In this document: piece by piece, positions 1 to 61,327 of the stretch
Layout of the letters: every line of letters starts with the position of its first letter
How positions within the stretch are numbered: position 1 is the first letter of the stretch
Source: Solanum dulcamara
Taxonomy: Eukaryota; Streptophyta; Magnoliopsida; Solanales; Solanaceae
Reading direction: 5' to 3'
NCBI RefSeq assembly: GCF_947179165.1
Contig: NC_077245.1
Span: 39,425,286 to 39,489,285, forward strand
Length of the DNA stretch: 64,000 nt
The notes under the pieces: model-generated
The model's database searches: none
What the model was told of the DNA's origin: nothing
The model's input: the letters and a program-made list of their open reading frames with translations, nothing else
Position numbers and translations under genes: made by a program

Positions 1-1135
1 GACCAGGAGGGTCAAGTATTAAAATGAGTACTGTGATGTTTCAGAGATTCTGGGTTCTTTCAACAATGATTGGAAATTGATTTATGACAACAGTTTATAG
101 TTCTCCACCGACTAATTGGGGAAAGAGCTTCGAAAAGAAGCACCACAAAGAGATGTCAGGAATTGAATTCGAATACAAATTAAAAGGGGGATATGTAAGT
201 ATGAATTGAACAGTGTGATACGAGTATGCAAGGATAAAGTAGAACCACTAGTCAGACGCACATAGTACGCGTTGACTAAGTTAAAGGCCTGCGTTGAGAA
301 TGCGGTAAGAGCATGGGGCTTACGATACAAAAAAAATGACGCATGTACATAACGTCGCCCCAAAAATAGTGGAACCCTTAAGGGACGAGGATGGCAAACT
401 TAAGGAATAAATGGCGCAACTTCTATTCGCCCCAAGAAGCACAGGATATAGGTTGGGATAAAGCTACTACTAAAAGAAAACCTTATCGTCAGAATATTAG
501 CACTGCCTAATTGGAATTGGAATGACTACAAGTACAAACAAAGGAAAGTATGTGTACCCTCTAAAGGGGGGAAGTTAATGAGAAAATGGCAAAAGTAAGA
601 TGAAGGCAATCGATATGGGAATATATTTAATATGGACGTCTAAACATCAACAAGATATCTTACCGAACAAAGTTAGAAAGGTCTGGAAGCTACCAATAAT
701 TGGATGGAAGCCAGAATGCTATATAAGGCAGCGTTAAGAAGTTTTTGATGAGACCCTAACTGACATAACACTAGAAGGCAGCTGCAGATAATAACAAAAG
801 AGTGTAACCATGAAAGGATATCAACCAACTTAAGAGACATTACGAAGGATAATGACATCATGCTAGACCAAAATCCAAAATGTTGGTTATAGAGTTAGTC
901 GCAAATGATGTTGCGATAGATAAATCACCAAAGAAAAAGAAATAGAAAGCCTCTTGTGGTAGAAAATAAGGAGAACATAAAGTGAATAGAGGATAGTGGA
1001 GTTAAAGGTCTACGCCGGTACTGGATGCAAGATAACAGATGAAAGGATAGGGCGAAACATAAAGACTCGCTAGATAATGCTGAGGTAAATCTTGGGCTAA
1101 ATCGAGTGCCCGCATATCGTGGAAAGGATTACAAT

Positions 1136-1255
1136 GGAACGCGACACGAAGACTTCCCAGGGAGGTCACCCATCCCAGTATTACTCTCACCCCAGCACAC
1201 TTAACTTCAAATTTCTGATGGAACTTAATGTGTTAGTACTGGTATGATCACACGA
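1136..1255 (-). pseudogene. 5S rRNA-derived module inside element A
   Basis: Read on the minus strand, this is a full-length (120 nt) relative of plant 5S rRNA. It starts near the GATCATACCAG block, passes through a GTTAAG-GTGCT region (the internal A box) and GGATGGGTGACC (the C box), and ends in a GTGTCGCG tail. The A-box part has changes (GTTAAGTGTGCTGGGG). It shares with the copy at 33,042-33,161 one extra base in the CCTC-CTGGG segment and the TAATACTGGGATGG variant, so both descend from one capture. It is antisense to the host element and is not part of a 5S rDNA tandem array. Confidence 0.88.
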
Positions 1256-1929
1256 GATGGAAGAATCGGAACTAGCAGCGGAGGAACGACATGAGATTAT
1301 GTCCCTAGAATACTATACTATACATTAAGGCAATTGTAACAAGGGCGTAAGCAAAATAAGAAGGATTAGCTAATTTCTAATTGACGACACAATCAACTAC
1401 CGAGAAATGCGAAAGTAGGTTAAGCCATACTACCGAGATGGAATTGGTACTACGAGTAAGGTAAGACATGGCCACGATTGGACCAAAGACCTACCCCAAC
1501 ATCGAAGGTAAGATATGAGAACTAACGAGATAGCACTGGGATATTTTTTGTACCCTCTCATAATCTTGTAAAGGTAAAGAGTGACACAGGATAATGTGTC
1601 TAGAAGGTTACAAGTGGGGGTAAGGAAAGTGGTGAAAGAGTTTAAACGAAACGGGCAGAACTAGCTGGTTACTACAGAATGACGAGCTTATATGCCAAAA
1701 TTCCTTTGGAATTACACTAGATCATGTTAGACAACGCACAGAATGACTACGAGAGACATTATATGAGGGGACCGCATCATTATTCGGTAGCCAACTCTAA
1801 GGATTGGGAAAAAAGGGGAAGAAGAACCCAAAAGATCGAATGCCAGTTAAAGTTCTGGAAAGGAACCCCTCTATAATTTATATAAAGTCTTAAAGGAAGT
1901 TGCATTTAACATTCGGGGATGAATTTTCT

Positions 1930-1943
1930 AAAGGGGGGAAGGA
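1930..1943 (+). other. Polypurine tract of element A
   Basis: The run AAAGGGGGGAAGGA lies directly before the 3' LTR start. This is the expected primer site for plus-strand DNA synthesis in LTR retrotransposons. An almost identical tract, reverse complemented, precedes the LTR of element B at 31,534-31,547. Confidence 0.85.
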
Positions 1944-19583: not shown

Positions 19584-22431
19584 TGTGACACCCCATACTT
19601 TTGTACCTTGGAAGGTTCTTAAGCTTCTTAAGTATCTTGAAAGGTTCTTAAGTTTTTGGAAGGATTCTTAAGTTTCTTAAAGCTTCTTAAGATTCTTAGA
19701 AGTTACCATGGGAGCCAGATATCCCATAATGCTATCAAACAACTCTAAGGAAGGGAGAATGCGATACCTCATCATAGGGAAGATTGGAAATAGCATTGCA
19801 AGAATCCAGAAAAAGTTGGAGACCAAATAATGAGTCATAGGACTTGACTTACTTACGTAAGCTACCAACTTGGAAATATTACATACTTAAGCTACTTTAG
19901 TACATACAAAGCTTACATAGCAACGATTACATAGGTTCATAAAGTAAGACGGGATTATGAATCCACGAGTAGGAAAAGAGAGTAACACATGGAATCATGA
20001 GAGAGTGCCATATGGTAGCAAGGGAGAGTGCCATGTAGCAGTAGATGGAGCAAGGGGATAGACCTCAGCTGTCACATGGTAGCCTATGGTAGGAGGAAGG
20101 GAAGTGTTGGCCCAATAAGGGCTTGACACGTGTCACCACTTAGGGCTTGACATGTGTCACCACTTAGGGCTTGACACATGTCACCCCCTAAAGTAGCCTA
20201 TATATATAAGTTATGACTCATTATTATCTATAATAAATTCATTTATCTTCCTAGTTCAAGAGACTTCTAGAGAAAAAAGGAAGAGAAAAAACATCTATAA
20301 CTAGAGAGAGAGTAGGTTCTGCCAAGGAGAAAGAAAGGTAAGCCTCTGATTTCTTTCCGTGAATTAATTATCTAGGGTATAAAATGATGTTATGAATATG
20401 TTAGTAATGTAAATTTATGGTTTGGAGCAACACCAAAATGTTAGCAAGCAGCCACAAAGTTTTAGTCGCGCTAAAGGAACTTCTGAGGCAAGTTTTGGCG
20501 AGTTTGGTGAGTTTCAGGAAAGGTAAGGGTTTTCCTTTCAAATTGGAGTTAATTATGATGTTATAAAGTATATTAAATGTCTTAAATAAGGTTGGAAGTG
20601 GAAAAATTGCATAAGGATGCTTGACGTTAGAAACAAACTAAATTGAAGACGTCATAGCTAAATCGAAGTCGCATAGGGTGTTGTGATTGTGAGCCGCGGT
20701 TGTATATGGTATGGTTGTGTGTTGCAGGGATGTAAAGGGTTCTAAAAAGGGTGTGGGTTCTGCTGGTTGTAGAGACACGACCCCCTGTATAGTATGGTTA
20801 AAGGTTTTACGAAATAAAGGTTAAAAACTCTATTTTGGTATCGTAGTTTTGAGCTAGTTGTTTGGAGTTGTATTAGGTAATATTGAAGTGATTTATTTAT
20901 ATATATTCTGCTGTTTGTTTTGTTGGTATGATTTTTAATATTTTGACCGAGTGAAATCTTGGAGTTGTTGAAGTTATAGGGGAGATGCTGCCCGATTTTC
21001 GGTAACTTTGGAACTAGTAAGAAACTAGTCAAAGGTATTGGATAAAAAAATTATTCCTATGGGTACTTGGTTGTAGAGTTGGAAATTGGAACGAGAAAGG
21101 TCATTAATGTCAGTATTACTTTCATGTTATTAGGTCAAGTTGCTAACGAGGCGAGCTGGATTACAGTTAATCCACACAAGGTATGTAAAGCTACCTTCTT
21201 TCTCTTGGCATGTTTTTGGCATAGGTATGTAAAGCTACCCCTTCCTTCTCTTGGAATGTTTTGAGATAAGTATTACATGATGTAAGGTTTGGGGGTTATC
21301 CCATCCATAAATCTCCGAGCATGATTTATGACTCTTATCTACTTCCTAATATTATAACTTCCATAATAATGGAGCTATGGCTCTCATGCCTTCTATATGA
21401 TGGAGAGTAGAAAAAAATGTGAAGTTTTGTTCCTTTCTTTGGCATGGTCTTTATGAAACAAATATATTATTTTAATATGCTTCCCGAGGTTCTATTTTGA
21501 TGCAATCCATAGTAACATTCAAAAGGTACTTGATATGGCACTTGTCTTGATTTTTGAATGATAGCTCATTTTGATCATTCCGTTGAGTCTCAAATATGAT
21601 TTAAATTGCATTTAGTTACTTACTACTCTACTCGTGGATGCCTCAATGCTTCCTTTACTAAGCCTGGACTAGGAGATACATGATCGTGCATAGTTCTTTG
21701 CCTTCTTCGTCGTGCCCCGACGTGAGGGGGCAGGTATTCCCTGTACATGGGTTGTGGAGTTATGTTATGACATGTACACATATGTTGATGTCTGATGATA
21801 TGATATAATATGGCCATCTGATATGATATGATGTGTTATGGATATATTCCCTACTCTGGAGTTATGCTATGTTGTGGTCGGATATGACATATGTTTTTCC
21901 ACATGCATTATCTGTGTTTGTTATAAGTATTTTGACATTTTGGATATTTCGCTCTTTTTCTGTACATTCTGTTCTGGTTATGACTTTATTTATTACATTC
22001 TATGCTTTACATATTCAGTACATGCCCGTAGGTACAGACATTTTAGTTGCCGATCCGCTTGCTTGGGATATCCACTCTGATGTTTGACAGTGCTTCTTTG
22101 TCCAGAGCCTATATTTTGGTACTGACCTTTCTGTAGCCTATATGTATACATTGGTCAGGAGTACAATGGGGCCCTGTCCTATCAAATGATTATTCTATCA
22201 TTCTATAGAGGTCTATAGATATGTATTTGTAGGTTATGTATATGTTTTAGGCTTTTGTGTTTCGTGACGGCCTTATCGACTTTCGTGAGATGCATCTCTT
22301 TTATGCGCTATCTAGTGACCTTATTTAATTTTTATATTTTTTTATTCTGCTAATATGCTAATTTTGGATAAGGGTACGTATAGGAGTCCAACTCGGGCAT
22401 GAGTCGCGGCCTACGGGATTGGATCATGACA
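19584..22431 (+). repeat. 5' LTR of element C (family 1)
   Basis: This 2,848-bp LTR starts TGTGACACCCCATACTTTTG and ends GGATTGGATCATGACA, right before the primer-binding site. It contains the three-unit G-box array, the TATA box, the AAGGTAAG sites and a short internal duplication of a GGTATGTGAAGCTACC-like block (21,180-21,240). Its longest ORFs (such as 21,833-22,087) are hydrophobic chance frames in T-rich sequence. Confidence 0.92.
20119..20210 (+). promoter_or_regulatory. U3 promoter of C 5' LTR: three 24-bp G-box repeats and TATA box
   Basis: The unit GGGCTTGACACGTGTCACCA is repeated with a 24-bp period at 20,119, 20,143 and 20,167. The palindromic core is GACACGTGTC in the first unit and slightly altered in the next two. 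CCTATATATATAAG follows at about 20,197. The same arrangement occurs in the 3' LTR (23,823, 23,847, 23,871; TATA about 23,901). This is the canonical place for the LTR promoter. Confidence 0.7.
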
Positions 22432-22435
22432 AAAG

Positions 22436-22450
22436 TGGTATCAAAGCAGT
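22436..22450 (+). other. Primer-binding site of element C (initiator tRNA-Met type)
   Basis: TGGTATCAAAGCAG starts five bases after the LTR end. It matches, with one change, the TGGTATCAGAGC complement of the plant initiator tRNA-Met 3' end, the usual primer of Ty3/gypsy elements. The equivalent site of B is at 35,954-35,970 on the minus strand. Confidence 0.88.
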
Positions 22451-23700
22451 CCTACCTAGGAATGTCTATAGACCGTGTCTAGTAGAGTCTTATTTATCGG
22501 TGTGTTGAGTGCCACATTTATTAAAAGGAGGCTACAGGGCATTTAGGATGTCACCTTTCTTTCATATCTAAGATTGTGCGATAGAGCCTAGATATAGGAC
22601 ATGAAATTCCTTTTTCTAACCTTTGGTTTCAGCTGAAGAACAACATCGACAGAAGAAAATGACGGATGATATTAGAAGCTACCCAATATACAGGTAAGAA
22701 TGGTGTGAAGGAGGCATGCTGGATAAGGTAAGAAGATTGAAATATGATTGAAATGTAAAGTCAAAAATTGAAGGGAAAAGTAGACAGGAAAGTGTAACGG
22801 GTGCAGTTTGAGTTGGACATACGAGGCAACTCCATTATTTTATACTGTTGTTGATATTGGGTGGCCTATATGGCAGTGATATGAATATATATATGTTGTC
22901 CCTGTGAGGCATTGTTTGTATTTCCTAAGTGCAGGTTTGGGATAGTAAGGAATATAGAGGAAACTCTACCGAATTGTTTTTGGAAATAGAAAGAGAATAA
23001 GATATAAGGTTGTAATATATCTTGAGAGATTGTATACACGGTAACAATAAGATCCGACTAAACTAGGAGTATAACTGACTTTGGGAAATAAGTAAATTGC
23101 GGTACGAGTGGTAATTACATGGTCGATACTAATATGGTGAGAAGAATGGTGATGGATATGAATGTCTTAAGACTGCCTACGAGGTATTAAGGATGAGAAC
23201 GACGAGGAGGGATAAAAGGGTTAAGTACGATTTCTCCACCAAGTGGAATAAGTCCAGAGTAAGGATCCTGAATAAAGGTTAAGAAATATTACCCTACGAG
23301 ATTGACCATGAGCAGAATATAGTGTGAATATAATGAGTATCATCATGGAAGTATGTAGGGCCTAGTAATGAAGTAACTAAAAAATATGATCGTGAGTAAG
23401 ATTAGGAGTCAGCATCGAGTTCACGATAAGGATGAAAGTGCATAAAGCAGAAAGGGGTATTGTGTACATGTACCTCTACTATGGAAAATAGTAAGACCCC
23501 TCAAGGATGAGGGAGGTAGCTCTGCAAGACCATTGATACATTGCGAGTCCTTTAAGAGGAAAAAGTGGTATTCACTGGGATGAAGATAGTGTTATAGCAA
23601 ATCTAGAAACACGTGTCATCAGAGTATAAGTGCCCCCGAATGGAGAATCAGACATGATTATAAGCACTAGTGACATACTGATTGGGATGAAGGAAATGCA
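22451..23700 (+). mobile_element. Internal remnant of element C (leader with intron-like segment)
   Basis: This noncoding remnant is homologous to the first part of B's internal region. A CAG|GTAAGA donor (22,691-22,699) and a TTTCCTAAGTGCAG acceptor (ends 22,934) have counterparts at the same places in B, so the leader may be spliced. There is no gag start and only short ORFs. It joins the 3' LTR with loss of the polypurine tract and about the first 390 bp of that LTR. Confidence 0.7.
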
Positions 23701-24428
23701 GAAAAGAGAGTGACACATGAAAGCATGAGAGTGTGCCACGTGGCAGCAATTGGAGATGGGGGTGGACCCCATCTTTCACGTGGCAGCCAATGGTAGGAGA
23801 AAGGGATATGTTGGCCCAATGAGGGCTTGACACGTGTCACCACTTAGGGCTTGACATGTGTCACCACTTAGGAGTTGACACATGTTACCCCCCTAAAGTA
23901 GCCTATATATATAAGTTATGACTCATTCTTATCAATAATAAATTCATTTATCTTCCTAGTTCAAGATACTTCTAGAGAAAAAAGGAAGAGAAGAAAAATC
24001 TAGAACTAGAGAGAGTGTAGGTTCGGCCAAGGAGAAAGAAAGGTAAGCCTCCGATTTCGTTCTATGAATTAATTATCTAGGGTATAACATGATGTTATGA
24101 AGATGTTAGTAATGTAAATTTATGATTTGGAGCAGCACCAAAATGTTAGCAAGCAGCCACAAAGCTTTAGTAGCGCTAAAGGAACTTTCGAGGCAAGTTT
24201 TGGCGAGTTTGGCGAGTTTTGGGACAGGTAATGTTTTCCCTTTCAAATTGGAGTTTATGATGATGTTATAAGGTCTATTACATGTCTAAAATAAGGTTGG
24301 AAGTGGAAAAATTGTATAAGGATGCTTGACGTTAGAAATAAACTAAATTGAAGTCATCATAGCTAAATCGAAGTCGCATAGGGTGTTGTGATTATGGGCC
24401 GCGATAGTAGCTGGTGTGGTTGTGTGTT
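23701..24428 (+). repeat. 3' LTR of element C, part 1 (lacks its first ~390 bp)
   Basis: It begins at GAAAAGAGAGTGACACATG, which aligns with 19,975 of the 5' LTR, and runs to the insertion point of solo LTR K. It includes a three-unit G-box array, a TATA box and both AAGGTAAG-type sites. The missing first part implies a deletion that also took the polypurine tract. Confidence 0.88.
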
Positions 24429-30198: not shown

Positions 30199-30260
30199 TG
30201 TCACGACCCAACCTAGGAACTAGTCGTAACACGGCGATCGAAACCCCGAAGGGATCCAAC
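30199..30260 (-). repeat. Stub of the 5' LTR of element E
   Basis: Only the last ~60 bp of the family-2 LTR remain (TGTCACGACCCAACC to GGGATCCAAC), aligned with 15,579-15,640. It then switches to the interior of a family-1 LTR at CAACTCGGCCAC. The other partner (37,490) has ACAACTCGGCCAC, so the break shares a short CAAC microhomology. Confidence 0.8.
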
Positions 30261-31533
30261 TCGGCCACAGTATCAAAAACCACACTAATAACAACAACCA
30301 ACAGCATATATACAATGAAATCGCCTCAATATTACAAAATACAACCCCAAACAACTCGTTTAAAACTATGATATCAAAATAGGGTTTTAGTCTCTTTTTC
30401 ATAAAACCTTTAAGTATGTGAAGTGGAGGGTCGTGTGGCTGAAACCAGAAGCACCCACTCCCTATCTAAATCATTTTCCAGCACCTTAACACACCACCAC
30501 ACGACCAGCAGCCACACGCTACAAACACAACGCACTATTTGACTTCAATTTAGCTACGACGACTTCAATATAGATTGTTTCGAATATAGGGCATTTACAC
30601 GGATTTGTTTGTACTTCAATCCATTTATAATGTGTATAATAAACTTCATAACAACTCCATAGATTCCAAATTGAAAGGATAAAACTTACCTTACCCAGAA
30701 TTGGCTAAAACTCGCCAAAACTCGCCTTGGAACTTCTCTAAATGTGCTAAAATTGTGCGGACTGCTTGTTATCCATTTGGTTCTGCTACAAACCATAAAT
30801 ATATACTATTAATACCCTCATATCATCATGATATACCGTAGATAATTAATTCATGAAACAAAATTAGAAAACCGACCTTTTTCCTCCCTTGCTCGCCACC
30901 CTTTTCTCTTAGCTTAAGGATTCCTTTTCTTTTCTTTTTTGCTGAAGTTTTTTGGATACGAAATGACTTAAGTGTCACAAAAAAAGTATATGTAGTCTGA
31001 CCTAGGAGGTGAGACATGGCATCCCCATAGGGTGCCACGTATGCAGTTTCTATTGGGCCACGTATCCATGTCATGCCCCCTAGGTTGCCACTTGTCTTTG
31101 GTGGGGCCCACCCCCAAGTAGGTGGGTCACCTACTTGACCCCAAGAAGGTGGGTCACCTTCTCCCATGTGACACCCTCCCATGCTGCCACGTGGTGCCTC
31201 CTCTTGCTGCCACATATTGTTCTCCCCTTTTCCGTGTGGGTTTGTAATCTCGTCTTATTTTAAGAGCTTATGTAATCCGTACTACGTGAGCTTGGTATGT
31301 CCTTAAGTATCTCAAGTGTATAAAAATTCTAAATTAGAAGCTTACGTAGGTGAATCGCGTCCTATGACTCATTCCTAGGATTCTTATAACTCTATTTCTA
31401 ACCTTCTCTACTGTGGGGTGTCGCATTCTTCTCTCCTTAGGGTTGTTCGATGTGTGTGTATAGTAGGGGTATCATGGACACATTCAAGAGGGATAGGAAT
31501 ACATTTCAAGGTTCAAAAGTGTGGGGTGTAATA
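30261..31533 (-). repeat. 3' LTR of element B (family 1), truncated
   Basis: It aligns with 37,490-38,735 and ends at GGGGTGTAATA (inverted LTR start) next to the inverted polypurine tract. The downstream two thirds of the LTR (minus sense) are missing at the 30,260 junction. It retains the TATA-like TATATG (about 30,987), CACGTG and CACATG boxes and one AAGGTAAG-type site (about 30,687). The ORF at 30,826-31,215 is a low-complexity GTGG-rich chance frame in the U3 array. Confidence 0.85.
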
Positions 31534-33041
31534 TCCTTCCCCCCTTTAGAACATTTGTCCTCGAATATTAACTCGTCTTATAGGGTTTTACGAGGATTTC
31601 GGGGGTTCTGTATAATCGTCGTCTCCCAATTCAGTTAGGAGGTTATATTACCTTTGGTATATAGCAAACAAGTACAAGTATCTTCTCTCTACTCCCTTTT
31701 GACTTCTCGGGTCATCCTCTTTCTAGTTTTTGTTTTGCCATAATATCCCAACGGAAGTCATGTTCTTATCCATGATCTCCTAATATGTCGATCCAGGGTG
31801 GCGATAGGTTGCTCTTCGTAGGATAACTCATTTATTACGTTGACTCTATCCATGGAGAATATTCCGGAAGGGTTTACTTATACCGTTATAGGACATTGGT
31901 GGGTGAAAGACTAGGGGTACTATTTTTAAACCAGATAGTAGGGCCACTTATAGGAAACTTTGCCTATTCCACACATGGTCTGGTAAAGACCAATATATAT
32001 CGGGCTTAACTTATTCCTTCTTGCCGAACCTCATTACTCCTTCCATAGGCGTCACCTTCAAAGACACCCAATCGCTCACTTAAATTTCCAAAGAGCGATG
32101 TTGATTGTCTGCATATAGCTTCTGTCGATTTTGAGCGGTTAATAACTTTCCCTGAATAGGCTTTACATTCTGTACCTCTTAGTGAACCACGTCTAGGCTT
32201 ATTAGTCGTGCTTTACTAACATTAAACCAACCAATTGGCGACCTACACTATATGCCATACAAAGTCTCATATGGGGCCATCCTGATACTAGAACGATAGT
32301 TAATATCATAAGTACTGCTAACAGGTGGTAGGCAATTGTCCAAGCCACCTTTAGGGCCAACCGCATAGGACCGCAACATATCGTCTACCATGTAGCTAGT
32401 AGACCTAGTCTGTCCATTAGTCTGACGCTAAAGTAGTACACGAAGGCTTATCTATCTTTTATGTCTCTTCGCAGACTGACCTTCGGTAGTTAATTGTAAC
32501 TTGGTCTTATTCATCTAGGATAGTAGCTATGGGGAATCCATAAGGTCCTACCCCCTTTATCCTATAATTTTAGACCTTCTCGGCTGAGTAGGAAGCCTTT
32601 GATTGAAGGAGCATGGGCTAATATTGTTATTCTGTCGGTAACATTCCCTCCAAAGTCATCTATCTATGGAGTGCAAAGAGATTCCTCTAGCTAAGGTCGT
32701 ATTGTGGAATCTTTGACCTTGTGTATTAATTCTTACCTTCTTTAAATGACATCAACCGGTTCCCTTACCTTTTGGGTTTTCCTTTTTGTCCCTAAGAGGT
32801 GGTTACCAAGTGGTGTCAAAATTCCCTTACCCATTGGCCCATATAGCTATTCTGTGGTTTGCCTATCATTAATTGGTTCTACATTGAAGAACTGTGGCAT
32901 ACAAGTGTGTCATCGGTTAGTAATCAGCTAATTCTACTTGAGTTGCTCAAGCCCTTTTTGCAATTCCCTTAACGTAACTTATAATACTCTAGGTACATAA
33001 TCTCATGTCGTTCCTCCGCCGCTAGTTCGGATTCTTCAATG

Positions 33042-33161
33042 TCACACGATCATACCAGTACTGACGTACTAAGGTCCATTAGAATTTCGAAGTTAAGCGT
33101 GCTTGGGCGGGAGTAATACTGGGATGGGTGACCTCTCTGGGAAGTCTTCGTGTCGCGTTTC
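33042..33161 (+). pseudogene. 5S rRNA-derived module inside element B
   Basis: This 120-bp segment matches plant 5S rRNA from end to end. CGATCATACCAG opens it. AAGTTAAGCGTGCTTGGG covers the internal A box unchanged from the plant consensus as I know it, GGATGGGTGACCTC covers most of the C box, and TCTTCGTGTCGCG closes it. Helix-forming ends are altered and one base is inserted before CTGGGAAG. The first run of five Ts that could stop Pol III is at 33,254-33,258. The module is antisense to element B. Flanks (TCTCATGTCGTTCCTCCGCC before, CAATCC after) also match those of the copy in A. Confidence 0.9.
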
Positions 33162-35953
33162 ATTGCAATCCTTACAATAATGTGCGAGGCACTCAACTTA
33201 GTCCAAGATTTACCTTAGCGTCGTCTTACTAGTCTTCATGTTTCACCCTGCCCTTTTTCCTTTTATCTTACAACCGGTATAGAGGTAGATCTTTATTTCC
33301 ACCATGACCATGTCCCTTTTTAGTCATTTGATTTAACTTCTCCTATTGTATTCACCCCTTTTTGTAAACACCCATTTATTAGGGTCTCTGTTAATGGTTT
33401 CCCGTACGGTCTTAGATATCATGGTTTCTATCCATTATGGTTGGCTTTTAGATCTTGCTAGCTCGTTCCAGCATAGGATTTCCTTTGAAGTTTTAAGTGT
33501 TCACATTAAAAGGTTGTAGTGTCGGTTAGTTTTACCTCATACTTGTGTGTCTCATATCTATTTCCCCCCTTTAAGGTGTAGCCATGCCATTGTCTGTTTA
33601 TTTTCAGCCTTTCAACGGCATATCAATCTTTTCTAACATATCTAGTATACTGCATCTTACTTATACCTTAAATTACCTACGTGTGAGACTTTAACAGAAT
33701 TAGAAGGTGCTTATCATCATTTCAAACTTGGTCATAAAACTATCTTAATCCCAAAGGGATACCACTTATTCTCTTAATAACTTCACAGTGCAGCGGTTGT
33801 TCTACAACCCTACATTCCTTATCCTTGGTTATGCATTTGTCGCAACATCCTTTGCGACCAACTCTGTAGACATCATTTTGGCTTTTGGTCTAGCATGATG
33901 TCATTATCCTCCATAGTGTCTCTTGAGTTATTCAATATCCTTTCATTGCTATGCCTTTTTCTTTTTATACGCACTCATCTTCTAGCGCTATGTCATTCAA
34001 GGTCTTGTTAAAACTTGTTAGCACTACCTTACATTGTATTCTGACTTCTATCCAATTATCGACGACTTCCAGATCTTCCTAACTTGGTTCAGCAAGGGAT
34101 TTTATTGAAGTTTAAGCATCCATCTCAAATTTGTTGCCATATCAATTGCCTTTATCTTACCCTTGTAGTTTTCTCATTGACTTTACCCCTTTAGAGGGTA
34201 CTTATACCTTTATCTGTTGATACCTTTTTCTACATCTCTATGTCTAGTCTAAAATCCGTCCGATCTCTTTCCCCACTCTGCCTAGTACTGTATCCTATCC
34301 CCGTTTCTCTGCATATTTTATAACCTGATTTTCCATGTATGGAACCTAGGCTAAATCATGAGGCAACATGAGCCTTCCCATATATAAGGTGATATCTCAT
34401 CTACTAATCGGTACTTGAATGATGTGACCCAGGAAACAACTCATCCAAGGCCACATTCTACCTATGTTTATGAAAGGTTAATGCACACTTATAGTCATTC
34501 CAATTTTTAACTAGGCAACACTTGTATTCCAGTGATGATTGTCCAAGGTTCTCTCGGAATAATAGTTTTATCCCAACCTATAGCCTTTGTTTCTTGGGGT
34601 GAACATAAGTTGCACTATCTATTTCTTATATTCGCCGTCTTTGTCTCTGAAGAGTTCCATTATTTTTGGGGCGACGTTATGTACACATATTATTTCTTTA
34701 TACCTTATGCACCTTTCCCTTACTATATACCTAACACAAACTTTTGACTAAGTTAACACATACCAAGTGCACCTTACTAACGGTTCTACTTTATCCCTGT
34801 ATTGTTGTACTATACCTTTAAACTCATACTTACGTATCTCCCTTTTGGTTCATACTCATATTCAATTCATAACATCTCTCTGGGGTGCTTTTGTTAGCAT
34901 TTCGTTTTCCAATTAGTTGGTGGAGAACTAATAACTATTATCATAGAATGCTTTCCAACCACCGTTAGAAGAAAACTAGAATCCCTTAAATATCATAGTA
35001 CTTCTTAACACTTGACCCACCTGGTCTTCTTTTGAGTTTATCCTCGCGTTATGAACAACTTATCTAACTTTCAACTAAGAGTTGGGGGCTTGGTACTTTT
35101 CAAGAAAAGTGAAACTCAATTGCTGGACATCTTACCCTTTAACATGAGCTTTTTTTTTCTATTCTTTTTGGTCCTACAGTACAAATACGGCTGGAGGTAC
35201 CGTAGTCTGAATTTTAATGCTCAAATAGGCTTTTGTTTCTCCGAAATAAAATTCTCCAAGTAGAAATGGTGACCCTTATCGACGACGTGAAGGGTACCTC
35301 TTACATCTTTAGTTAAACATAATAGGGGTCTTCAATATCAACTTTAAAGGAATACTAAGAGTCTATGTTTCATTCCCTTTTCTTGTTCTGAGAAAATTTC
35401 GACAGAGTTTCCTCTATATTCCTTACTATTCCAAACCCTGCATGCAGAAAAAACAACCAATGCCTCACAGGGCTAGCATATATATATATTCATATCATCT
35501 CACAGCCACACAGGGCTTCCAATATCATCTCATACTGTAACCACACAGGGCTTTCAATATTAATAATAATAAAGAAATAATAGACTTACCTCGTATATCC
35601 AACTTTGAACTGCATTTGTTGCACTTTCCTATCTATTTTCCCTTTAATTTTCGACTTTAAACTTCAATCACATGTCTATACCTTACCCAACAGATATCTC
35701 CTATGCCTTTACTTACCTGCGTGCTTCGTAACTTCCGATTTTGTCAGTTACTTCCTTGTGTTGATGTCGTCCTTCTGCTAAAATCCAAGGTTAGTATAAG
35801 AAGGTTTCCTATGACTCGGATCTATAGAACGATCTTATATATGAAAGAAAGGTAACATACTAAATGTCCTGTAGCTTCCTATTTATAGATGTGGCATGCA
35901 ATACATCGATAATCGAGACTCTACTAGACACGGTCTGTAGACAATCCAAGGAC

Positions 35954-35970
35954 AAACTGCTTTGATACCA
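35954..35970 (-). other. Primer-binding site of element B
   Basis: On the minus strand TGGTATCAAAGCAGTTT follows the 5' LTR end by about five bases. It is identical over 14 bases to the site of element C and complementary, with one change, to the initiator tRNA-Met 3' end. Confidence 0.88.
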
Positions 35971-35975
35971 CTTCC

Positions 35976-38735
35976 TTCACGACCCAACCCCGCAGGTCAT
36001 GACTGGGGTGTGATCTGAACCCCGTATACATATCTATCAGTTGTGGTCAAGTCAAACTATAAATAACACAATACCATGAAATATAACCCTATTGGGTGAT
36101 AATATTTCCATAAACCAATAGCCTTTTTCATTTGTATCACATCATGAAAGGGTACGCAAGTTGACGAGGCTGCCATAACATAATAACATATATCATACAT
36201 CATGTAGACCCAGCTAAACCAAACTAACATACACAACACATATATACATGTCTGCAGACCTCTAAATATATTAATGACAACATATGGCGGGACAGGGCCC
36301 CCACCGTACCCCTGAATAGGCAAACCCATTTTATACATCGGTCGTTCGTACCAAAAACTAGGCTCTGATACAATGGAGCCTCTTCCAACTGAGATGAGCG
36401 GAATGCTAAGCTGACGGACTACCAAATCCTGTATCTGTACTTGCGGGCATGAAATGCAACCCTCCAATAAAAGGGGGTAAGTATGACATATGTACTGAGT
36501 ATGTAAAACATAACATAAAACAACTGGAAGTATATCTGAAATAGAGAAGCAGGGGGTAAATTATCAAATAAGCAACCTATACCTGGGAAAGTAAAATCAT
36601 GCATGCTCAAATTTTTCAATATAGTTGGCCCTATCAGGGATCCGGTGAATCATATCTGTAGAACCATCACCTTCTTATTACAACAAATCATCACATCATC
36701 ACATATATTCATATGTACCCGGCCCTTTAGTGAGGGCATGATGAACAATGCAGTTGAATTGTGCACGAATCCGATAACCAGCCCAGGACTGGGAGAAGAA
36801 GTGTTATAATATACACGAGTAGAGTAGTGGAAAACAAAACACAGTTTAAATCATTATCTGAAATTCAATGAAGTCATCAAGCGAAACATCACTTGGAGAT
36901 CAGGGTAGGAAGTATCTGACGTACACCCTCTAAATGTCACTAAGGACTAAGTAAAAAGGAATCTTGGAAATCTTAGACATATACCAGTGTGAAATATCTT
37001 ATAGTAGTCTGAGTATTAATTATCTCAGAGTCTTTAGAAAAAAGAAGGGCTTCGTCTAATCAATCACTATACAGTCACAGAGATGACTTAAGGAATGGGA
37101 GTTTAACTACTTTAAGAGTCTTAACATCCAGAAGTGATCAAGAGTCCGGAAGTGACATTCATAACCTAAGAATGAAATTTCACCAAAGCTTACATCATTC
37201 ATAGTCTACATCTAAGACATGCCAAAAGAAAGAAAAGATAGTTTCACATACCTGTTACGGGTTAATCTTGTTCCAGCTTGCTCCGTTACTCCTTTAAACT
37301 ATTTAACATAAATGTGATACTAATGTTAGTAGTATTTGACTATCCAACTTGTAATTCTATCACCAACCACTCATAGGGCCCAATTCCTTATTTGCCTTTC
37401 TCGACTAGTCCCGATTAGTCTATTAGTTAGCTAGAAGTTAATGAAATTTGGGTAGCACCTCCTCTATAAATTCAACACCCGAGATTACAACTCGGCCACA
37501 GTGTAAACAACCACACTAATAACAACAAACAGCAACATATATACAATGAACTCGCCTCAATATTACAAAATACAACCCCAAACAACTCGTTCAAAACTAC
37601 GATATCAAAATAGGGTTTTTTGTCTCTTTTTCATAAAACCTTTAACTATGCGAAGTCGAGGGTCGTGCAGTTGCAAATAGAAGCACCCATTCCCTATTTA
37701 AACCATATTCCAGAACCTTAACACACCACTACATGACCAGCAATCACATGCCACAAACACAACGCACTATTCAACTTTAATTTAGCAACGACCACTTCAA
37801 TATAGATTGTTTCGAATGTCGGGCATTTCCACGAATTTTTTTATACTTCCATACATGTATAAGGTGTATAATACACTTAATAACAACCCCATAAATTCCA
37901 AATTGAAATTGGCTAAAACTCACCAAAACTCGCCAAAACTCGCCTCGGAACTTCTCTAAATGTGCTGAAATTGCGCGGACTGATTGTTATCCATTTTTTT
38001 ATGCTATAAACCATATATTTATACTATTAATACCCTAATATAATCATGGTATAACCTAGATAATTAATTCACAGAGTGAACTCGTAAAACCTACCTTTTT
38101 CCTCCCTTGGCCGCCACCCTTTTGTCTTAGCTTTAGGGTTCCTTTTCTTTTCTTTTTTGCTGAAGTTATTTTTGATAAGAAATGACTTAAGAGTCACAAA
38201 AAAATTATATGTAAACTGCCCTAGGAGGTTACATGTGGCATCCGCATAGGGTGCCATGTGTCTAGCCCGTATTGGGCCACATATCCATTTTATGCCCCCT
38301 AGGCTGCCACTTGTCTTTGGTAGGGCCCACCCCCAAGTAGGTGGGTCACCTACTTGACCCCAGGAAGGTGGGTCACCTGCTTCTAAGTGTCACCCTCCCA
38401 TACTTCCACCTGGCGCCTCTTTTTGCTGCCACGTGTCATTCTCCCCTCTTCCTCGTGGGTTCGTAATATCATCTTATTTTAAGAGCCTATGTAATCCGTG
38501 CTACATAAGATTAGTATGTCCTTAAGTAGGTCAAGTGTATAATACTTCTAAATTAGTAGCTTATGTAGGTGAATCGTGTCCTACGACTCATTTCTTGGCC
38601 TCAAATCTTTCTGGATTCTTATGACTCTATTTCCAACCTTCTCTACTGTGGGGTGTCGCATTCTTATTTCCTTAGGGTTGTTTGATGTGTGTGGACAGTA
38701 GGGGTATCATGGCCACTTTCAAGAGGGATAGGAAC
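35976..38735 (-). repeat. 5' LTR of element B (family 1), outer ~45 bp missing
   Basis: It runs from the inverted LTR end (TTCACGACCCAACCCCG) through all family-1 landmarks to AGAGGGATAGGAACAT. That is about 45 bp short of the LTR terminus as judged from the 3' LTR (31,485-31,533). At 38,736 it meets another LTR fragment after a GC-rich filler-like CGCGTTCCCGCG. The long ORF 36,057-36,467 is a chance frame also seen in LTR A (5,037-5,450). Confidence 0.87.
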
Positions 38736-60130: not shown

Positions 60131-60846
60131 TGTTGAGCAGTTTTCTACTATAGCAGCACCTCTAACTTGGTTGACTTGTCAGGATGTGCCATTTGTCTGA
60201 TCGGACGAGTGTGAGAGAAGCTTTATAAGGCTCAAGAAGTAAGGGATTCACCATTTATTATGATGTGTCTGGCATTGGTTTTGGCTGTGCACTAATGCAG
60301 TAGCATCAAGTTATTGCTTATGCATCGAGGCATATTAAGAGGTATGAGATCAACTACCCCAATCATGACTTAGATTTTGCGGCAGTAGTTTTTGCGCTTA
60401 AGATTTGGAGGCACTACTGATATGGAGTTCGATGCGAGATCTACACTGATCACATGAGCCTTCAGTAAGTTATGAGTCATAGGGATCTTAATTAGAGGTA
60501 GCACAATTGGATTGAGCTCTTGAAGGACTACGTCCTTTCTATTTTCTACCATCCAGGCAAGGCAAATGTAAAAGTAGATGCCTTGAGTCGGAAGGTAGTG
60601 AGTATGGGTAGTCTAGACTTTCTTTCTACTCGGAAGCAACCTTTAGCGTGAGATATTTAATCCTTAGTTAATCGAATAATTCGACTTGATATGTTTGATT
60701 CATAGTGTGTGATAGCTTATGTGGGAGCTTAGTCATCTTTATTGGATTGGATTCACAAAATTCAGTTAGAGGATAAGGATCTAGTTGCACTTCGAAATCA
60801 GGTTTTTGGAGATGACGTCGGCCTCTCCACTTTAGATCTAGATGAG
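60131..60846 (+). pseudogene. Element G RNase H and start of integrase spacer, cut by element H
   Basis: Readable blocks are DVSGIGFGCALMQ (about 60,262-60,300), [20 protein letters not shown] (about 60,314-60,372), LIRGSTIGLSS-like, LKDYVLSIFYHPGKANVKVD (about 60,525-60,580) and LSRKVVSMGSLDF (about 60,583-60,620). After that lies a QLEDKDLVALRNQV spacer segment. The gene ends where the LTR of element H starts (60,847), so integrase is lost to the window. Confidence 0.78.
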
Positions 60847-61327
60847 TGTTACACCCCGTATTTTGGTACCTTGGAATGCTTCTTAAGCTTCTTAAGTTTT
60901 TGGGAAGGCTCTTAAGTTTCTTAGAAGTCGTCATGTGAGTGGGATAATCTATAACGCTATCAAACGACTCCAAGGAAGGGAGAATGTTATGCCCCATGGT
61001 AGGGAAGGTTGGAAATAGGGTCATGAGAAGTCGGAAGGAGTTGGAGGTCAAGTAAGGAGTCGTAGGACTCGATTTACCTACATAAGTTACTAATGTAAAA
61101 GTCTTATATACTTGAGAGACTAGAGGACATACCAAGCCTGTGTAGCACAGATTATATAGGCTCTTAAAATAAGGTGAGATGACGAACCTACGAGCTGGAG
61201 CAAAAGCTAGTTTCCGAACTTACGAAAGTGAAGCAAGCAGGTGACAAGCAAGAAGGTGACTCACCTGTCTGCTTGGGGGGGTGGACCCTGCTGCCACATG
61301 GCAGCATGTGATTGGCCACATGGGTTG

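Follow-up and report, generated by a model that had tools for sequence, protein, structure and literature searches.

LTR retrotransposons with 5S-derived sequence have been described with the 5S in their LTRs, as far as can be gathered from the accessible parts of PMC10853983, PMC10886601, PMC7215508, PMC4717578, PMC12786077, PMC5974128, PMC6843817 and PMC8465422. Within the same limits, a whole 5S gene occurs in none of 81 Cassandras (PMC10853983), 5S was not detected in any other TRIM family (PMC4717578), and how retrotransposons gain a 5S promoter, whether once or repeatedly, is under debate (PMC10853983). A literature search, made largely without subscription papers, turned up no LTR element, LARD-like and chromovirus members included, in which the 5S is internal or antisense.

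The stretch of DNA analysed here (the window; 64,000 nt of Solanum dulcamara, GCF_947179165.1, NC_077245.1:39,425,286-39,489,285, forward strand) contains two 5S modules that are full length, internal and antisense to the elements that hold them, and in these respects unlike Cassandra, as an earlier note on this DNA had proposed. The module of element B (33042..33161, plus strand) scores 61.4 bits against Rfam RF00001 (E 1.9e-10) and covers model positions 1-120 of 120, so the 120-bp end-to-end match to 5S described in that note is borne out. The other module, at 1136..1255 on the minus strand, is antisense to the related plus-strand element A and scores 62.3 bits, again over model positions 1-120. 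Both exceed the RF00001 gathering score of 38. There is no third 5S in the 64-kb window, in which these are the two matches at the gathering score and a permissive scan adds nothing. Window positions 993-1391 align to 33305-32906 at 80% identity (71-77% in neighbouring stretches), and the modules of A and B therefore occupy homologous sequence. The internal control region, with A box, IE and C box (5S positions 50-97), is placed at 33090..33138 (plus strand) by its register to the host 5S gene, with box limits that we take to be the usual ones. Against that host reference, a gene from a tandem array with a period of 341, the A box of B is intact, and the C box, said earlier to be nearly so, has two substitutions and one inserted base. 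A flanking inverted repeat extending the terminal stem was noticed by eye in B, is weak in A, and was dropped.

Element B lies on the minus strand, as judged from its PBS-like site, polypurine tract (PPT) and LTR start. Its internal region of ~4.4 kb (31534..35971, minus strand) runs from the PBS-like TGGTATCAAAGC at 35959..35970 (minus strand), presumably of tRNA-Met type, to the PPT at 31534..31547 (minus strand). The PBS-like site has one mismatch, and its motif occurs in the window no more often than chance would give; it is backed by the homology of 36004-35364 to 22402-23006, in another element, which contains the same site. Outside these limits lie the 5' LTR (35972..38734, minus strand; ~2.8 kb, without its outer end), recognised by LTR homology and the PBS-like site, and the first 1.28 kb of the 3' LTR (30257..31533, minus strand), which is broken beyond that point, both LTRs being incomplete. 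Since the pieces 30257-31499 and 37488-38734 are 85% identical, the insertion of B is old. PBS-like site and PPT enclose the module, and the PPT follows ~1.5 kb downstream of it, in agreement with the internal, antisense position claimed for it. Rfam scans at gathering and permissive settings find no 5S in the LTRs of B.

Nine frames of B, with stops read as X, contain no Pfam domain at E 0.01, RT and gag included. At looser limits a Tf2-1-like integrase C-terminal SH3 remnant (PF24626) appears at 31947..32024 on the minus strand (E 0.031), and the domain is clearer in three sister copies (L010, 3.5e-9; L013, 1.6e-5; L015, 6.8e-8). On these grounds B belongs to a non-autonomous family: it has the LTRs, PBS-like site, PPT and pol remnant (weak in B itself) of a Ty3/gypsy element and no intact pol. 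The integrase remnant reported earlier thus stands. For the chromodomain remnant reported with it, the Pfam model is unmatched in B and the sister copies, a regular expression for the chromodomain tail has no match in the window, and a putative tail can be read by eye. B also contains a diverged internal duplication (33324-33601 and 33943-34221, 62%). Element A has its PPT at 1930..1943 (plus strand) and its 3' LTR from 1944 onwards. By alignment, A carries in addition a diverged duplicate of what surrounds the 5S site in B, without the 5S (1452..1864, plus strand). This was rejected as an empty site: the neighbouring sequence is missing along with the 5S, so the duplicate does not fix the limits of the insertion. 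Elsewhere in the window, nested LTR sequence includes two direct copies that are 90% identical (20000-20723 and 23705-24428), and a broken frame at 60250-60720 (plus strand) resembles, by eye, a Ty3-type RT/RNase H, with an LTR start near 60847.

The module is host 5S rRNA sequence that became part of the internal region in a Ty3/gypsy lineage, non-autonomous and chromovirus-like, and was multiplied with it. One genome was searched, the window's own (942 Mb, 32 contigs), and all counts are lower bounds. In a search with the 120-bp module, 40 of 1986 candidates were scored; one is B and the other 39 show 89-95% identity over most of the module. Twenty distinct places (L009-L028, 6 kb each) were sampled in this way, L001-L008 being B and duplicates of seven of them that were not recounted. 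The module is antisense with B-homologous sequence on both sides in all 20, and an LTR-start motif follows it in 16. A second sample was drawn with the flank 33170-33340 as query, by scoring 40 of 2045 candidates and fetching 30, B included; it represents the closest flanks and is not random. Here too the module is at the same place in 29/29 other copies, two of which (L049 and L068) have deletions inside it. The module is therefore common to the family, and is found in A as well, as the earlier note had supposed. The genome contains 252 exact matches to the 24-mer AGTAATACTGGGATGGGTGACCTC, taken from the module, and, as a control, none on either strand to the same pattern read backwards. The matches listed are the first places, on C1 to C5, and the eight read among them (L037-L044) all have the antisense module with homologous flanks. 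No relatives turned up in other collections: viral contigs were searched with three patterns and genome contigs with one, each giving 0 matches.

A second, related family carries 5S in the sense orientation. The canonical 42-base 5S core has 1059 exact matches in the genome; among the 100 listed, a single array on C7 accounts for 69, and 28 of the 31 dispersed ones were examined. Related elements with sense 5S beside their 3' end account for 23 of these 28 sites, with an LTR-start motif 186-214 bp after the C box in 20/23. In 19 of the 23 the 5S starts at +1 or no more than one base away from it (L031, L032, L083 and L086 have an altered beginning), and the 18 copies that need no shift to align agree with the host gene at 42-49 of their first 50 bases. 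The mean identity of the window family to the host over 5S 1-49 is 0.656, and the sense capture is on this comparison much the younger. Among the core sites there are also L091 and L095, which are window-family modules whose 42-base core is identical to the host gene and whose first half is diverged; a less altered subfamily of the window family thus exists.

In all 23 sense copies the 5S stops at about position 103, so that about the last 16 nt are missing, and is followed by forms of GAAAGAGGAAATGAAACAC, which by eye reads as the chromodomain tail W-E-V-K-E-E-M-K-H-K-Y-P. The joint between 5S and tail falls, again in all 23, at a stretch common to both, TGGGAAGT, and has the exact form TGGGAAGTGAA in four of them (L077, L083, L084, L093). 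At the joint position the host 5S has CCCTGGGAAGTCC, and window-family copies have at the corresponding place CTGAGAAGTC (L012, L016) or CCTGGGATGCT (CCTGGGA, L022). These three diverged relatives are the only ones in which the acceptor was found without 5S. Upstream of the sense 5S, the sequence aligns to B up to ~33375 in three copies and up to ~33470 in three others, and the sense 5S therefore bridges a gap of ~1.7 kb relative to B. With its different place, orientation and limits, the sense 5S is a capture independent of the window's.

Three dispersed core sites of the 28 lie outside both families (L082, L090, L094), each with a T-rich trailer, as if 5S transcripts had been copied in this genome. 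At L090 (C5:75321587-75322108) a free 5S runs from +1 and ends in TCTCCTTTTT, like a reverse-transcribed 5S transcript. L082 (C3:65438136-65438657) and L094 (C6:35273999-35274520) have 5S with a TCCTTTT trailer, followed at these unlinked places by the same downstream sequence, which resembles a Solanaceae SINE; they are perhaps a mobile 5S-SINE chimera.

Selection on an ancestral promoter would leave a pattern in which shared changes avoid 5S 50-97. Shared changes, defined as differences from host 5S in at least 80% of the 30 flank-sampled copies, occupy 10/49 positions before the internal control region, 1/48 within it and 4/22 after it (Fisher p 0.008 for the first pair; the inserted C-box base is excluded from the 1/48 and related counts). 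With cut-offs of 50-90%, with and without B, and with two subfamilies taken apart, the counts are 8-16/49 versus 1-3/48 (p 0.0004-0.031). When A and B were first compared with 5S oligos published for angiosperms, the same trend appeared more weakly (8/46 before, 2/41 within, 3/22 after). This avoidance of the internal promoter is suggestive, though no proof, of a TFIIIA/Pol III core that stayed functional in the lineage while it spread. The fixed differences between the two subfamilies all fall in 5S 1-49 (6/49, with 0/48 in 50-97 and 0/216 flank columns), so that the shared changes may include a recombination patch, and the test for selection is weakened accordingly. A promoter role in the ancestral copy is put at somewhat below even odds. 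The sense sites cannot test promoter constraint, since they were picked for a perfect core.

The present copies show no sign of extra promoter constraint. The mean pairwise difference among the 30 flank-sampled copies is 0.184 for 5S 1-49, 0.116 for 50-97 and 0.146 for 98-119, and promoter diversity is no lower than that of the right flank (0.109, biased low since this flank was the query), though lower than that of the near left flank (0.148) and of a longer left flank (0.232, with poor alignment at its far end). Without CpG-prone columns, 5S 1-49 (0.115), 50-97 (0.100), near left flank (0.098) and right flank (0.090) are all alike. By this diversity, the sampled copies today look like decayed passengers. 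The C box is identical to the host's in 1/30 copies and the A box in 10/30; identity to the host is at least 16/18 for the C box in 24/30 copies and at least 14/15 for the A box in 19/30.

Downstream of the module in B, the first T4 run, a possible Pol III stop, lies 92 nt after the 5S end (33254..33257, plus strand), and an antisense RNA from B would be predicted at ~215 nt, ending at 33254-33257. Among the 30 copies this first run lies 62-197 nt downstream, at 92 in 15 and at 155 in six. Plant 5S genes use upstream elements; inspection by eye of the 40 bp preceding the module showed nothing TATA-like in most copies. The earlier suggestion that such a transcript would run antisense across pol is doubtful: the near flank lacks codon periodicity, and B yielded neither an RT nor a gag domain. 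An open reading frame in the flank beside the module (the EESELAAEERHEIM reading in A and B) was ruled out in the same way, by the lack of codon periodicity over the 30 copies.

As to how the 5S entered these elements, the most likely route would be template switching by RT onto 5S RNA during replication of the element. For the sense family we infer this fairly strongly from the order of the parts and the joints: RT would have left the element RNA at the common TGGGAAGT, copied 5S RNA to its 5' end and rejoined the element RNA upstream. The window's antisense module would need a switch during plus-strand synthesis, which is proposed tentatively. Capture at the DNA level would instead mean that 5S rDNA or a circle of 5S DNA recombined with the element or was attached to it by end-joining, as proposed for Cassandra; the accessible text of PMC10853983 names transposition, recombination or eccDNA integration. 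The genome does have a tandem 5S array, DNA repair can also produce microhomology joints, and the start at +1 may partly reflect DNA, since the three bases before +1 (GAT) are the same in the 5S array. We nevertheless consider entry as DNA unlikely, given that the sense family starts at +1 and breaks at a common stretch, and that the flanks of B resemble 5S spacer no more than expected by chance (best E 0.19), for which reason an origin from 5S spacer DNA was rejected. A nested Cassandra LTR, or part of one, would fit the spacing and sequence of A box and C box, which match by eye the core pattern in the available part of PMC7215508. It is a most improbable source, however, for a full-length 5S of a kind seen in none of the 81 Cassandras, and the 200 bp that follow the module contain, on the same strand, no TGGTATCAGAGC with up to 2 mismatches.

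The readings of function divide on whether the promoter was ever used. If the 5S was a pure passenger, captured once per family and spread only with the element, it never had a promoter function; extra constraint is absent now, few copies have undamaged boxes, and LTRs of ~2.8 kb could hold an ordinary Pol II promoter. Against this are the avoidance of the internal control region by shared changes and the two independent captures in related elements, and the passenger reading, serious as it is, strikes us as rather more probably wrong than right. It is very unlikely that the 5S-like fold was used in place of the promoter, as a 5S mimic that serves export or packaging by binding TFIIIA or a ribosomal protein. 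The sense 5S of the sister family does lie near the 3' end of the element RNA, but without the last part of the 5S, and in the window family the antisense module argues against a mimic, as the element RNA carries only the complement. The explanation we prefer combines capture by template switching, an ancestral promoter that kept working and decayed passengers at present, and as a whole it falls just short of an even chance. The internal promoter bound by TFIIIA would probably have kept working in the ancestral copy as it spread, and we infer that Pol III could have started against the element's own direction, with a T-run as its stop, mostly at 92 or 155 nt past the module. Binding by TFIIIA/TFIIIC in present copies and steering of insertion to 5S loci, both raised in the earlier note, are hypothetical. 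If Pol III works on these modules, it would be transcribing within a Pol II-type element and against its direction.

Among known systems, LARD-like or partly deleted chromovirus derivatives (presumably Tekay/Del-like, by the clade names we assume) share with B the long LTRs, the non-coding internal region, the integrase-end remnant and the PPT beside the LTR. SINE3 is likewise 5S sequence spread by reverse transcription; it is a non-LTR, free-standing element. The modules described here are flanked by LTR-element sequence, the same in 29/29 flank-sampled and 20/20 module-sampled copies; a SINE3 would be a free-standing 5S plus tail with a target-site duplication. Ajax/TRIMp3 of nemerteans also has 5S-derived sequence in a non-autonomous LTR element, and differs in its length of 421-434 bp and in its partial 5S, which lies in the LTRs, according to the accessible part of PMC10886601. 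Cassandra, also a non-autonomous LTR element, has a Pol III core derived from 5S, and its Met-type PBS may be a further likeness. As described in the source parts available, it is dissimilar in its size of 563-968 bp without coding remnants and in its partial 5S (a core of ~70 bp) within short LTRs, compared with a 4.4-kb internal region, an integrase remnant and LTRs of ~2.8 kb here. Internal 5S families show how elements can acquire a host RNA gene, and the question of 5S acquisition becomes testable in a genome that offers two captures whose joints can be read. It is conceivable, though on present evidence doubtful, that LTR retrotransposons with internal 5S form a class of their own, in which one gypsy lineage made two opposite template-switch captures that spread because an internal TFIIIA/Pol III core is of use to the element; on that view RNA capture would be a recurrent process, with Cassandra as one of its results and not a single ancient accident.
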